A stretch of DNA of 64,000 nucleotides from Trueperaceae bacterium (GCA_011389865.1 JAABTL010000001.1:1-64000), one strand, 5' to 3'. Shown: positions 49,201 to 54,871, counted from the first letter of the stretch. Notes: generated by a model from the letters alone, not told the origin. Numbers and translations: made by a program.

Positions 49201-50163
49201 ATGGACCTGCTGATCAGTGGTGGCGTCGTGCTCGTCGCCATCTTCGCGCTGTCCGTGTACGCGGTGTACCTGTTCTTCGTGCGCCTGTTCAAGCTCTCCC
49301 GCGAGCGACTCGACGTCGAGGAGCTGATGGTGCGGGTGAACGCCGCCGTGCGCGACCGCGACCTCGACCTGGCGCTCGAGGCCTGCGAGCAGCATGGCGG
49401 TCCCGTCGCCCGCGTGCTGCAGTCCGCGCTGCTGCGGCTGCCGTACGGGCGGCAGGCCGTGGAGGCCGCGTTCGCGGAGGCCTCGCTGCTCGAGGAGCAG
49501 AGCCTCACGCGCGGCCTGCGCCCGCTCGCCACCATCGCGCAGGTCGCGCCGTTGCTCGGCCTGCTCGGGACCGTCACCGGCATGATCATCGCCTTCGGCG
49601 AGATCAGCGCCAGCGGGACCGGCAACCCGGGGCTGCTCGCCGGCGGCATCGGCCAGGCCCTGGTGACGACCGCGGCCGGCCTGATCGTGGCGATCCCCGT
49701 GCTCATCGGCCAGAACTACCTCGCCAGCCGGGTCGACGCGATCCTGACCGAGATCGATCGCCGGCGCGAGGAGCTCATGGCGAACGTCGTCCAGGCGGTC
49801 GCCGCCCGCAAGGAGCCGGCGGCCTCGGGACCCGCGGAAGACGCGGCGACGACCGCGTCGGCGCAGGGCGCCAGGGCGGGTGCCGTCCGCCCCCGCCCGA
49901 CTGCCGTGAGTCCGGGGATGGCGCCGGCGGGTATCCGCCCAGCGGCCGTCCCCGTGGCCCCGGGCACCGGCGGATCGACCTCGCTGTTCGCCGGTGGCGA
50001 CGACCCCGCGCCGGCCGGTGCCGGCGAGGACACGCCGGTGGTCGGGCGCGGCGGCAGGTTGCGCGTGGAGCGCTTCGTGGCCGACGGCGGTGGGCGCGGT
50101 GACGGCCGCGGCCCGGACGAGGACGGGTCCAACGGCGACGAGCCGCCCGAACCGGGGCGCTGA
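49201..50163 (+). CDS. exbB: ExbB/TolQ/MotA-type proton channel protein
   Basis: A 320-aa inner-membrane protein. Helix 1 at about 5-27 (SGGVVLVAIFALSVYAVYLF), a cytosolic segment with LALEACEQHGGPVARVLQSAL, then helices 2-3 in LRPLATIAQVAPLLGLLGTV, GMIIAFGEI and GGIGQALVTTAAGLIVAIPV, the conserved ExbB/TolQ core. The C-terminal 110 residues are a Pro/Ala/Gly-rich cytosolic tail, an addition absent from typical ExbB. With ExbD it forms the proton-driven motor of the envelope. ExbB and TolQ are not separable by sequence alone here. Confidence 0.88.
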   Translation: MDLLISGGVVLVAIFALSVYAVYLFFVRLFKLSRERLDVEELMVRVNAAVRDRDLDLALEACEQHGGPVARVLQSALLRLPYGRQAVEAAFAEASLLEEQSLTRGLRPLATIAQVAPLLGLLGTVTGMIIAFGEISASGTGNPGLLAGGIGQALVTTAAGLIVAIPVLIGQNYLASRVDAILTEIDRRREELMANVVQAVAARKEPAASGPAEDAATTASAQGARAGAVRPRPTAVSPGMAPAGIRPAAVPVAPGTGGSTSLFAGGDDPAPAGAGEDTPVVGRGGRLRVERFVADGGGRGDGRGPDEDGSNGDEPPEPGR

Positions 50164-50164
50164 G

Positions 50165-50578
50165 GTGACCGGTCGTCGGAGCTACCGCCGGCGGCGCATC
50201 CCCGTCGCCCCGGGACTCGACCTGACGCCGATGGTCGACGTCGTCTTCCTGCTGATCATCTTCTTCATGGTGTCGACGACGTTCATCACCCTCGAGTCGG
50301 GTCTCCCGGTCGACCTGCCGCAGGCGCAGTCGGCGCAGGCGCAGCCGTCGGACCTGCCGACGGTGACCGTCACCCGTGAGTCGGCCGTCTTCCTGGCGGG
50401 CGCCGAGGTCGAGCCGGCGGACCTGGTCGTCCTGCTGCAGGAGGCGATGCAGGCGAGCGGCCAGACCACCGTGGTGTTGCGGGCGGACGAGACCGTCCCG
50501 CACGGCTTCGTGGTGGAGATCATGGACCTGATCCGGACGGCCGGCGCCCAGCGCATCGCCATCGCCACCGGCGGTTGA
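50165..50578 (+). CDS. exbD: ExbD/TolR-type stator protein
   Basis: A 137-aa protein with a basic N-terminus (GRRSYRRRRIPVAPGLDLTP), a single helix MVDVVFLLIIFFMVSTTF with the essential membrane Asp in the LTPMVDVVFLLIIFF motif, and a periplasmic domain containing VVLRADETVPHGFVVEIMDL. GTG start 2 nt after the exbB stop. Partner of the upstream ExbB. Confidence 0.92.
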   Translation: MTGRRSYRRRRIPVAPGLDLTPMVDVVFLLIIFFMVSTTFITLESGLPVDLPQAQSAQAQPSDLPTVTVTRESAVFLAGAEVEPADLVVLLQEAMQASGQTTVVLRADETVPHGFVVEIMDLIRTAGAQRIAIATGG

Positions 50579-50592
50579 GGGGCGGGGGGACC

Positions 50593-52545
50593 ATGGCGGT
50601 GCGTCCACGGGGTCGAGCGGCGGTTCGCTCACGGCGACGGCCGGCATGGTGGGCCGACGCGGACCGGCGCCGGGCCGCGCTGCTCTCCATCACGCTCCAC
50701 GTCGTCGTCATCTTCCTGGCGATCAGGGCGTTCACGTTCGTCCCGGCCGAGCCGCCGCCGACCTACCTGGTGATCGACCTGGGCGCGCCGCAGGAGGCCG
50801 AGGTCGCCAGGCCCGCGCCCGCGGCGGACGAGGTCGCGCCCGACGCACCCGAACCCCAGGTGGCGGACACGCAGGTCGGCGAACCGGTCACGGCGGTCAC
50901 GCCCGAGCCGCAGCCCGTGGCGCCCGCTCCCGCGCCGCAGACCCAGCAGCCCGAGTCCCCGGCCGCGGCGCCGGCGGCGCCCGAGGAGGCGACCGTGGAG
51001 GCGCCGCGACCGCCGCTGCCGGCGCCGATGACGCCCGTCGCCACCACCCCCGAGGTGCCGGTCGCCAGCGCGCCCGCGACGCCGCTGCCCACGATCGACC
51101 TGCCCGAGATCGAGCCCACGCCCTTGGCCGAGCGCGTGCCCGTGCCGCTGCCGACCGTGGCCGCGCTGCTGCCGGAGCCGCGCGCGATCGCCGCGCAGCC
51201 GCAGGTGTCGGTCGCGGCCCCGGCCGAGGTGCCGGTGCCGCGCGTCGGCGTGGAGGTGGAGGCCGCCGCGCCCGTGCCGGTGCCGCGCGTGGGCGTGGAG
51301 GTCGAGGCCGCCGCGCCCGTGCCGCTGCCGAGTCCGCTGGTCGCGACCGCGCCGGCCCGGCCGGTGGCCGTGCCGGACGTGCGCGCCGACGTGGCGGCCG
51401 CGCGCGACGTGCGGGTGGCGCCGCAGGTCGCGGTCGCCACCCCCGTCGCGGTGCCGCTGCCGCGGGTGCAGGCGACGGTGGCGCCGCTCCCGGCCGCCCC
51501 CGTCGCACCGGAGGTCGAGGCGGGCGCCGCCGCCGCGGCGAGCGAGGTCCCATCGCAGCGCGACGAGGACCTGGCGGCCGGCGGCGACGCGGCCAACCCG
51601 GGCCAGCCCGATGGCGCGGTCGACGACCCCAGCCCGGCCCTCGGCCTGGCGGCCGGACCGGATCCGGAGGAGTTGCCGCCCGGCGCGCGGGCGCTGCCCT
51701 TCGAGCCGTTCGCGCGGCAGCTGGAGCGCCCGTTGGCCGTCCTGGTGGACAACGTCGGCGGCGTCCCGGTCAGCGGGATCCGCCCGGCTTCGCTGGTGTT
51801 CGAGCTGCCCGTGGAGGCCGGTCTGACGCGCCTGATGCTCGTGTTCGACCGCAGCGACCCTGGGCGCGTGGGACCCGTCCGCAGCGCGCGGGCATACTTC
51901 GTCGAGCTGGCGGATCGCCTCGATGCGGTGCTGGTGCACGACGGCGGCTCGCCCGGCGCGCTGGCGGCGATCGCGGCGGGACCGACGCGCACGCTCAACG
52001 CCTTCACCAGCGGCGACCTGTTCAGCCGCGGCGACGGACGCGCGCCGTACAACCTCTACAGCGCCGGCGACGCCCTGCGTGCCGCGGTCAACCGCCTCGA
52101 CTTGGCGCGCGGGCGCACGATCAGCGGCACGATCTACCGCCCGTCGGAGGAGGCCGACGAGGTGGTCGAGGTCGTGGTGGGCTTCGGCGGGGGGTACGTG
52201 ACGGGCTTCCGCTACGAGGCCGGGTTCAACGCGTACCGCTGGCTGCGGGATGGCGCGGCGGCGGTCGACGCCGCCGGCGAGGCCGTCGTGGTCGACGCGG
52301 TCCTCATCGGCGAGGTGGAGGCGCGCCCGTTCCCCAACGACCCGGAGGGGCGGCTGTCGGTCCCCCTGCGTGGCGGGCAGGCCACGCTCTACCTCAACGG
52401 CCGCGCGCTGACCGGTCGCTGGGAGCTGCGCGACGCGACGGGGGTGTTCTTCGTGGGCGACGGCGGCGAGGTGGTCGACCTGGCGCCGTTCAAGACGTGG
52501 GTCGCGCTCACGCCCGCCTACGGCGAGCGCGGCGAGTCCCGTTGA
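50593..52545 (+). CDS. TonB-like membrane anchor and Pro-rich stalk fused to a DUF3048 domain
   Basis: A 650-aa protein in the place where exbBD operons usually carry tonB. Residues 28-50 form a helix with LLSITLHVVVIF, keeping the S-x3-H pattern (Ser32, His36) of the TonB helix that contacts ExbBD. Residues 55-370 are a long Pro/Ala/Val-rich stalk with two 15-residue repeats (213-242). Instead of a TonB C-terminal domain, residues 375-645 match DUF3048 (YerB-like): RPLAVLVDNVGGVPVSGI, FELPVEAGLTRLMLVF, GPVRSARAYFVELADRLDAV and VHDGGSPGALAAI. ATG 50593 follows a G-rich ribosome-binding site; a TTG overlapping the exbD stop is an alternative. Probably an envelope force transducer of new type. 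Confidence 0.8.
   Translation: MAVRPRGRAAVRSRRRPAWWADADRRRAALLSITLHVVVIFLAIRAFTFVPAEPPPTYLVIDLGAPQEAEVARPAPAADEVAPDAPEPQVADTQVGEPVTAVTPEPQPVAPAPAPQTQQPESPAAAPAAPEEATVEAPRPPLPAPMTPVATTPEVPVASAPATPLPTIDLPEIEPTPLAERVPVPLPTVAALLPEPRAIAAQPQVSVAAPAEVPVPRVGVEVEAAAPVPVPRVGVEVEAAAPVPLPSPLVATAPARPVAVPDVRADVAAARDVRVAPQVAVATPVAVPLPRVQATVAPLPAAPVAPEVEAGAAAAASEVPSQRDEDLAAGGDAANPGQPDGAVDDPSPALGLAAGPDPEELPPGARALPFEPFARQLERPLAVLVDNVGGVPVSGIRPASLVFELPVEAGLTRLMLVFDRSDPGRVGPVRSARAYFVELADRLDAVLVHDGGSPGALAAIAAGPTRTLNAFTSGDLFSRGDGRAPYNLYSAGDALRAAVNRLDLARGRTISGTIYRPSEEADEVVEVVVGFGGGYVTGFRYEAGFNAYRWLRDGAAAVDAAGEAVVVDAVLIGEVEARPFPNDPEGRLSVPLRGGQATLYLNGRALTGRWELRDATGVFFVGDGGEVVDLAPFKTWVALTPAYGERGESR
51229..51318 (+). 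repeat. Two 45-bp tandem repeats in the stalk of the TonB-like protein
   Basis: Units 51229-51273 and 51274-51318 encode VPVPRVGVEVEAAAP twice; a third partial unit begins at 51319. Differences are synonymous. Confidence 0.75.
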
Positions 52546-52578: not shown

Positions 52579-53394
52579 TCAGGGCGCGTCGGCCGTGTCG
52601 CCGTCGGGGGCCGGGCGCGCGATGAGCTCGTCGAAGAACAGGCCGCGCATGCGGACGCGGTAGCCCTGCGGGGCGATCTCGACCTCGAGGTAGGCGTACT
52701 CCTCACCGTGGCCGTTGGTGTCGAGCAGGATCGCCCGCCCCTGGCTGGCGATGTTCACGCCGCCCCGGACGGGGGTGTGCCCGTAGATGCCCAACCGGTA
52801 CGGCGTGCCCTCGAGCGCGTCGATCTCCTCGTAGATCCAGCGGCGCCGGTTCTCCAGGTAGAAGCCGTGGTCGTAGGTGTTGTGCTCCGGTCTCGGTCCG
52901 ACGTGGGCCAAGTGCAGCCCCTCGATCGCGAGCTCGCGCGGCCAGCCGGCGATCCACGCGCGCAGGTCGGCGGGCAGTTCGCCGCCGTAGGCGGCCTTCC
53001 ACTCGAGGTGGCTGACGTCGTCCGTGCGCAGGGGCCCTTGCTCGTCGTCGATCGCGTTGTGATCGTGGTTGCCGAGGAGCACGACCATCCTCCCCGCGGG
53101 CAGCGCGGCCTGGAACGCCATCACCTCGCGCAGGAAGGCCTCCTGCGCGGCCTCGGCCTTGCGCAGGTGGCGGGGGTTGTGTTCGTCGTAGCGACGGACC
53201 TCGGTCAGGTCGGCGTAGCGATCGCGGCTCTTGGCGTGCACCAGGTCGCCCAGCAGGACGAGGCGAACGTCCTGCTCGGGGTCGCTGAGGCGGTCGCTGG
53301 GTCGGTGCTCGTCGTCGGACAGGTCGGCCTCGCGCAGGATGCGCCAGAGCTTGTCGGACTGCGCGTGGATGTCACCGACGACGACGAGGCGCAT
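52579..53394 (-). CDS. Calcineurin-like metallophosphoesterase
   Basis: A 271-aa phosphoesterase with LVVVGDIHAQSDKLW (DxH), VLLGDLVHAKSRD (GDxxx), VVLLGNHDHNAIDD (GNHD), LHLAHVGPRPEHN and GIYGHTPVRGGVNI (GHTP), the full binuclear site of serine/threonine-phosphatase-like or Ap4A-hydrolase-like enzymes. A long insertion between the GD and GNHD motifs is rich in charged residues. It follows the LysM/M23 gene by 19 bp on the same strand. Substrate unknown. Confidence 0.85.
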   Translation of the reverse strand: MRLVVVGDIHAQSDKLWRILREADLSDDEHRPSDRLSDPEQDVRLVLLGDLVHAKSRDRYADLTEVRRYDEHNPRHLRKAEAAQEAFLREVMAFQAALPAGRMVVLLGNHDHNAIDDEQGPLRTDDVSHLEWKAAYGGELPADLRAWIAGWPRELAIEGLHLAHVGPRPEHNTYDHGFYLENRRRWIYEEIDALEGTPYRLGIYGHTPVRGGVNIASQGRAILLDTNGHGEEYAYLEVEIAPQGYRVRMRGLFFDELIARPAPDGDTADAP

Positions 53395-53413
53395 GGGCCG
53401 GCGGCTCGTCCGC

Positions 53414-54871
53414 TCAGCGCTCGGCGCGCGCTTCGAGGATGGGTAGGGGGTCGATGGGCGTGCCGTCGACGCGAATCTCGAAGTGGAGGTGCGGCCCGGT
53501 GGCGATGCCGGTCGTGCCGACGCGGGCGATGAGATCGCCGGGCGCCACGCGGTCGCCCACCTGCGCGACGAGCGCCGAGGCGTGCCCGTACCAGTACTCG
53601 GTGTCGCCGGTCTCGACGACGACGAGGTAGCCGTAGCCGCCGCGCCAGCCGGAGTACACGACGACGCCGCCGGTCGCGGAGCGGATGGGGTCGCCCGTCC
53701 GGCCGCCGATGTCGAGCCCGTTGTGCATGTTGCTGCCGCCGATGGTGAGACGGCGCCAACCGAAGCGCGAGGTGATCTGCCCGACGAGCGGCCAGACCAT
53801 GGCGTCGCCCCCCTGGGGCACGAAGGCCGCGCTGCCCACGACGTCGCTGGCGACCCCGAGGTCGGGGCCCGGAAGCACGCGGAGGACCTCGCCGACCGCC
53901 AGGCGATCGCTCGACAGGCCGTTGAGCGACATGATCGCCGCGATCGTGGTGTTGTGCTGCCGGGCGATCTTCCAGAGGTTGTCGCCGGGCATCACGCGGA
54001 CCTCCTCGGCGGCGGCGCCACCGACGTTGGCGGAGGGCGCGCCGGTCGTGGCGTCGATCGCGGCGAAGCGTCCAGGGACGGTGAGCGCGAGGCCCACGCG
54101 GAGGGTCGAGTTCGCGCTCAGCCCGTTGGCCATCGCGAGGGCGTCGACGGTGGAGTCATGCGCGCGGGCGATCGACCACAACGAGTCGCCGGGCTGCACG
54201 TGCACGACGAGCGGCGGGGCGGGCGGCGCGTCCGCGTCGCGCGTCAGGCTCAGGACCTGGCCCGGCCGGATGAGTGTGCCGTCGAGATCGTTCCAGGCGA
54301 TGAGGGCGTCGACCGTCAGCCCGTGGCCGCGCGCGATGTCGTACAAGGAATCGCCGCTGCGGACGACGTAGGTCGACGGCGCGGCGGCGGGGGCAGAGGA
54401 AGCGGGCGCGTCCGCGGGCGCGGGCGCCGGTGCCGCCATCTCGGCGGCGGTGGCGGCGGCCGTGGCGACCCTGGCGCCGGGAAGGCGGAGCGACGCGCCT
54501 GGCTGGATCGTGTCGCTGGCCAGGCCGTTCAGGGCCATCAGCGCGGCGGTGGAGGTGTCGTGCGCGCGCGCGATCGACCACAGGCTGTCGCCGGGCTGCA
54601 CCACGTAGACGAGGGGGACCCCGGACTCGAACGCCGCGGCGGCGGCCGGCGTGGCGGCGGCGGAGGGGAGCGTCAGGACCTGCCCGATGCTCAGGCGCTC
54701 GCGGTCGAGCTGGTTGGATGCCATCAGGTCGGCCACGGTCGTGTCGTGCGCGCGTGCGATCGACCACAGGCTGTCGCCGGGTTGCACCGTCACCGTCTGC
54801 GCCGCCGCGTGACCCGCCAGAACGATGAGCGACAGGGTACACGCACGCAGCAGGACGTATGGACGTGGCAT
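53414..54871 (-). CDS. Secreted LysM-repeat M23 peptidoglycan endopeptidase
   Basis: A 485-aa exported protein: signal peptide 1-24 (ending AGHAAAQ), five LysM domains at about 26-69, 88-131, 167-210, 221-265 and 290-334 (four with VQPGDSLW or close variants, the last VMPGDNLW), and an M23 domain at 360-475 with NMHNGLDIGG (His383, Asp387), YWYGHAS (His430) and GPHLHFEIR (His461, His463). All catalytic residues are present, so an active cross-link hydrolase is expected, unlike the inactive EnvC/NlpD type. Leaderless-type start. Confidence 0.92.
   Translation of the reverse strand: MPRPYVLLRACTLSLIVLAGHAAAQTVTVQPGDSLWSIARAHDTTVADLMASNQLDRERLSIGQVLTLPSAAATPAAAAAFESGVPLVYVVQPGDSLWSIARAHDTSTAALMALNGLASDTIQPGASLRLPGARVATAAATAAEMAAPAPAPADAPASSAPAAAPSTYVVRSGDSLYDIARGHGLTVDALIAWNDLDGTLIRPGQVLSLTRDADAPPAPPLVVHVQPGDSLWSIARAHDSTVDALAMANGLSANSTLRVGLALTVPGRFAAIDATTGAPSANVGGAAAEEVRVMPGDNLWKIARQHNTTIAAIMSLNGLSSDRLAVGEVLRVLPGPDLGVASDVVGSAAFVPQGGDAMVWPLVGQITSRFGWRRLTIGGSNMHNGLDIGGRTGDPIRSATGGVVVYSGWRGGYGYLVVVETGDTEYWYGHASALVAQVGDRVAPGDLIARVGTTGIATGPHLHFEIRVDGTPIDPLPILEARAER

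Follow-up and report, generated by a model that had tools for sequence, protein, structure and literature searches.

The described systems closest to the one reported here are the Ton system, the Tol-Pal system (TolQRA-TolB-Pal) and a functionally uncharacterized group of TonB-like transducers, described in 2025, that carry an unrelated vWA C-terminus and whose genes adjoin tolQR-like motor genes (PMC12204202). In TonB and TolA, a serine and a histidine of the anchor helix contact ExbB/TolQ, with Ser16 and His20 of TonB touching ExbB in cryo-electron microscopy structures (PMC12215075), and TonB proteins and most TolA proteins carry a 'motor box' strand just past this helix (PMC12204202). Here we analyze a 64,000-nucleotide stretch of DNA (the window) from a Trueperaceae bacterium (Deinococcota), in which three consecutive genes on the plus strand (positions 49201–52545) encode ExbB, ExbD and a TonB-like protein ending in DUF3048, the domain of the Bacillus subtilis lipoprotein YerB. 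We consider it probable, though far from certain, that these three genes form a proton-driven trans-envelope force transducer acting on the cell wall or outer membrane.

As a Ton/Tol-like transducer, the machine belongs to neither TonB nor Tol-Pal and most resembles the vWA transducers in kind. It resembles the Ton system in its ExbB/ExbD motor, SxxxH helix, proline-rich stalk and motor-box strand, but has DUF3048 instead of TonB_C, occurs in a lineage that nearly lacks receptor plugs and has a stalk exceeding that of any TonB in a published survey; it is not a TonB member because there is no TonB_C and there are no receptors. The likeness to Tol-Pal lies in motor proteins whose best NCBIfam scores are to TolQ and TolR (far under the cut-offs), a transducer gene behind the motor genes and a proposed role in the envelope, whereas the TolA C-terminus is missing, no tolB or pal lies in the operon (TolB was not searched genome-wide) and OmpA/Pal-like domains are rare in the phylum. 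With the vWA transducers it shares a TonB-like helix and linker, an unrelated C-terminus, adjoining motor genes and the lack of a known function, but its tip is DUF3048 with the YerB fold, its stalk is about three times longer, and it occurs in Deinococcota and not in the phyla named for that group (Proteobacteria, Planctomycetes, Verrucomicrobia, Bacteroidetes and Rhodothermaota). Lastly, YerB lipoproteins have a complete two-part DUF3048 with the same conserved polar residues, but hold it by a lipobox and short linker instead of a long stalk leading to a motor-binding helix. The open-access literature that we searched contained no DUF3048 system of this form and mentioned DUF3048 and YerB incidentally only. 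An initial annotation of the window had stated that it knew of no such described system; this holds for DUF3048 in that literature, but not for the general kind, which the vWA proteins represent (PMC12204202).

Within the operon, exbB (49201–50163) encodes a MotA/TolQ/ExbB proton channel subunit of 320 amino acids (PF01618, 100.7 bits) and exbD (50165–50578, GTG start) an ExbD/TolR protein of 137 amino acids (PF02472, 105 bits) with its pore aspartate in LTPMVDVVFLLIIFFM. The third gene (50593–52545) encodes 650 amino acids from an ATG with a G-rich, ribosome-site-like stretch upstream, and its open reading frame (ORF) is extendable to a TTG at 50575. The protein has an N-terminal transmembrane anchor, RRRAALLSITLHVVVIFLAIRAFTFVP (50665–50745), containing a TonB/TolA-type S32-x3-H36; a short strand-like stretch, TYLVIDLG (50761–50784), positioned where TonB/TolA carry their motor box; and a Pro/Ala/Val-rich stalk (50749–51726, 22% Pro) that includes a 45-bp tandem repeat (51229–51330, 2.3 copies, 94% match). 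The initial annotation had anticipated this layout: the operon is present with a Pfam match for each protein, S-x3-H falls exactly at residues 32–36 when numbered from the ATG at 50593, the tandem duplication lies in the stalk, and a stalk put at about 300 residues measures 326.

Both parts of DUF3048 follow the stalk, as had also been proposed. The N-terminal domain (PF11258; 51721–52098, residues 383–508 of the TTG-start ORF) scores 106 bits (E = 2.6e-30), with the same placement in a whole-genome search, and the C-terminal domain (PF17479; 52183–52503, residues 537–643) scores 38.6 bits (E = 1.5e-9), both past the curated Pfam cut-offs of 25 and 25 bits. By sequence, this part of the protein matches B. 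subtilis YerB (2PSB) at E = 1e-28 over residues 25–289 of 297. An AlphaFold model of it, built from an alignment of 7 rows and of moderate confidence (pLDDT 55), gave 2PSB as the sole significant Foldseek match (E = 2.7e-17, TM 0.66); a PHROG search of the same part gave no match.

We compared 33 fusions with five DUF3048 lipoproteins of Bacillota and Actinomycetota, numbering residues from the translation of window positions 51652–52545. Ten positions (N34, P39, G42, E55, T59, R60, P75, R77, S78 and R80) are common to 32 or 33 of the fusions and to all five lipoproteins; among them N34, E55, R60, R77 and R80 are identical throughout, and E51 and H96 of the fusions recur in four of the five lipoproteins. 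Because these residues are common to both groups, lipid-anchored and motor-attached DUF3048 domains seem to rely on one and the same surface for binding or activity. Every DUF3048 protein examined beyond the phylum has a lipobox and short linker, including lipobox-type N-termini in Rossellomorea, Subdoligranulum and Nonomuraea. One genome (G084) has, besides its transducer, a second and different fusion (L060:3086-4894, contig G084:C109), in which DUF3048 (94.6 bits) is joined to a trypsin-like peptidase (Trypsin_2, 100.9 bits) behind a signal-like N-terminus, with no exbBD beside it. Such a DUF3048-protease fusion points to DUF3048 being a binding module that can be moved between proteins.

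To place the fusion in its phylum, we surveyed 111 Deinococcota genomes, with many gene copies coming from metagenome-assembled genomes. DUF3048 was found in 43, comprising 34 of 39 Trueperaceae and 9 of 14 genomes of a second family that includes Oceanithermus. The five Trueperaceae genomes without a match are 67–89% complete, and one of them (G077) has the start of the fusion at a contig end (L087). Apart from G084, there is one DUF3048 gene per genome, and in both families the fusion gene lies directly behind exbB-exbD at every DUF3048-fusion locus with enough upstream sequence. The nearest named relatives are Trueperaceae metagenome-assembled genomes, with up to 93% identity over the DUF3048 part. 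Beyond Deinococcota, a scan with short DUF3048 peptides returned Trueperaceae only, such patterns reaching close relatives only.

High-GC DNA yields many long spurious ORFs, and the third gene could in principle be one of these, or the product of a frameshift or assembly join between separate genes. However, the fusion is uninterrupted in 33 distinct sequences of at least 534 amino acids (the window's included) from independent assemblies, among them single-contig ones such as G108:C1. In comparisons with two relatives, substitutions concentrate at third codon positions in both the stalk and the DUF3048 part. A break near 51650–51730, named beforehand as fatal to the fusion, was checked and is excluded by this recurrence; we reject a frameshift or join, and regard any artifactual origin of the gene as exceedingly improbable.

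The motor proteins show the features expected of ExbB/ExbD: PF01618, PF02472, and the pore aspartate and threonines. ExbB matches TolQ/ExbB structures at E of about 1e-11, and its motifs GTV-T and ALVTTAAGL are retained in Trueperaceae orthologues. ExbD aligns with the ExbD structures 7ajq and 6tyi over nearly its full length, its aspartate matching that of TPFID, and this pore aspartate is retained in both Trueperaceae and the second family. The proline-rich ExbB tail pointed out by the initial annotation is present as a cytosolic, Pro/Ala/Gly-rich extension of about 120 residues (49786–50163), but it is confined to this genus and its close relatives, where ExbB has about 292–334 amino acids or more, against 206–263 in most other members of the set.

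All 29 Trueperaceae N-termini of the third protein carry SxxxH within the transmembrane helix, a short distance past an RRA motif, and this conservation is not due to chance. The motor-box-like stretch (YLVIDLG in the window) is conserved in nearly all DUF3048-type orthologues. Among other Deinococcota families, 8 of 8 TonB-like proteins with a different C-terminus or a contig run-off carry [S/T/A]xxxH.

The usual partners of such motors are nearly absent from the phylum. The TonB-dependent receptor plug (PF07715) occurs in 2 of the 111 genomes, TonB_C in 1 and OmpA/Pal-like domains in 9, with none of these in the window's genome; the check for TonB-dependent receptors that accompanied the initial annotation thus came back negative for the plug there. 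The TonB_C occurrence is on a contig of G080 that also has a plug, and the plug and TonB_C contigs of this genome are likely contaminants because their GC content (45–50%) is unlike that of Trueperaceae loci (about 69–75%). The other plug, a single fragment in G003 at 67.7% GC, could be either genuine or a contaminant. The transducer itself has no TonB_C and no TolA C-terminal domain in a Pfam search. With plugs, TonB_C and OmpA/Pal-like domains nearly absent, this is therefore a motor without a recognizable Ton or Tol target. A protein with an SLH domain in the window's genome is consistent with outer-membrane attachment of the SlpA/OmpM type.

Taken as a TonB-like transducer, the protein keeps the architecture first proposed for it, and the claim that it does not serve TonB-dependent receptors is also well supported, since the operon, the SxxxH helix and the motor box are conserved whereas plugs, TonB_C and OmpA/Pal-like domains are nearly absent; we infer the remainder of that proposal, namely that proton-motive force reaches DUF3048, which acts on the wall or outer membrane. 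By homology, ExbB and ExbD would form the motor. Judging from motif and place, the SxxxH helix of the third protein would dock on ExbB and its motor-box strand on ExbD, and its proline-rich stalk of some 330 residues would cross an unusually deep periplasm. The DUF3048/YerB tip may then grip a ligand with the conserved polar residues (N, E, R and H) on its surface; the likeliest candidates are the thick peptidoglycan, the secondary polymer of the wall and proteins of the outer membrane. Because the lineage appears to lack TonB-dependent receptors, such a machine is more likely to do the kind of work that Tol-Pal does, the coordination or remodeling of wall and outer membrane, than to open receptors.

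The dimensions of the stalk are consistent with this role. The spacing from helix to DUF3048 is 326 residues in the window, 278–484 in Trueperaceae and 238–371 in the second family. An extended stalk covers an estimated 0.3 nm per residue, so that 330 residues, if largely extended, would cover up to about 100 nm. Published values for TonB domain II reach at most 245 residues and those for TolA 110–335 (PMC12204202). The outermost wall layer of T. radiovictrix measures 20–90 nm (PMC3072082) and the periplasm of D. radiodurans 121 nm (PMC9388160), and a long domain II fits both.

The machine could instead energize uptake, with DUF3048 opening or unloading an outer-membrane channel of the SlpA/OmpM or another barrel family; it would then be a true importer with an unrelated receptor. 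Conservation of all three genes and of the ExbB/ExbD pore aspartate and threonine motifs, despite the near absence of plugs and TonB_C, speaks for this, and OmpM of diderm Firmicutes is described as both a tether and a nutrient channel (PMC10628300). However, no barrel gene was recognized beside the operon in the loci examined, although barrels were not searched for systematically. Moreover, single-membrane organisms also carry DUF3048 as a lipoprotein, which makes it unlikely that an outer-membrane receptor is its sole ligand. We regard an importer as unlikely.

Several observations weigh against a force transducer of the kind we favor. The anchor Ser/His is found in 0 of 8 sequences of the second family (f4), indicating that the docking contact is not universal; this loss is the main inconsistency with plain TonB-like docking. 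Full TonB and TolA models give no significant match to the transducer (TolA 10.8 bits, E = 0.21), and in the ExbB of this lineage a Gln replaces the Glu of solved TolQ in the motif GIAEALIATA. The genes beside the operon are housekeeping-like, save for a LysM-M23 peptidase gene in opposite orientation. Finally, we know of no ligand for DUF3048. At the individual f4 loci without the anchor Ser/His (L039, L048, L051, L052, L055, L064, L088 and L090), the motor-box stretch and motor genes are retained, as is DUF3048 where the contig is complete.

That the second family has lost Ser/His yet kept everything else would also suit a static tether or sensor, in which the helix anchors DUF3048 without moving it and the stalk serves ExbBD as a gauge of wall distance or as a means of signaling. 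The proton-binding aspartate motif of ExbD, needless for a passive anchor, is nevertheless retained in both families, and elsewhere a plain lipid anchor suffices to hold DUF3048; we therefore think a tether or sensor quite improbable. Under the force-transducer reading, the widespread and uncharacterized YerB/DUF3048 domain gains a testable context, in that a motor appears to pull on it. The operon would also be a candidate means by which diderms without Tol-Pal and TonB-dependent receptors pass energy on to their thick wall and to the outer membrane, and the DUF3048 type enlarges a class of force transducers with exchanged tips that was proposed recently.

In Deinococcota families without DUF3048, a TonB-like protein sharing the anchor helix is likewise encoded behind exbB-exbD. 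On complete contigs this protein ends in an alternative C-terminal domain, some 110 residues long (VVVDARGL..PAILD..VWPD) and present in 14 genomes. A small secreted protein that begins with AW-P past its signal is usually encoded downstream, and neither it nor the alternative domain has a Pfam match above cut-off. Loci with the alternative system include L077, L080–L082 and L084–L086, in addition to those 14 genomes. In an ExbB-ExbD tree of modest support, the DUF3048 systems of both families cluster and the alternative systems fall outside, with L081 next to the DUF3048 group. At least one exchange of the tip thus seems to have taken place, with motor and anchor retained. More tentatively, and at somewhat less than even odds in our judgment, Deinococcota may power a receptor-less outer envelope with a distinct Ton/Tol-like class of exchangeable tips: YerB/DUF3048 in Trueperaceae and the Oceanithermus family, and the domain of about 110 residues elsewhere. 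YerB would then be a binder of a wall ligand, lipid-anchored in single-membrane bacteria and motor-driven here.

Convergent to the operon, on the minus strand at window positions 52579–54871, lie genes for a metallophosphoesterase and the LysM-M23 peptidase; both are nearby in about 20 Trueperaceae loci. A DUF3048_C piece of 61 residues (L038:6001-6183, CP070651.1) also lies beside a metallophosphoesterase, far from the intact operon of the same genome (L035), and is probably a rearrangement remnant.

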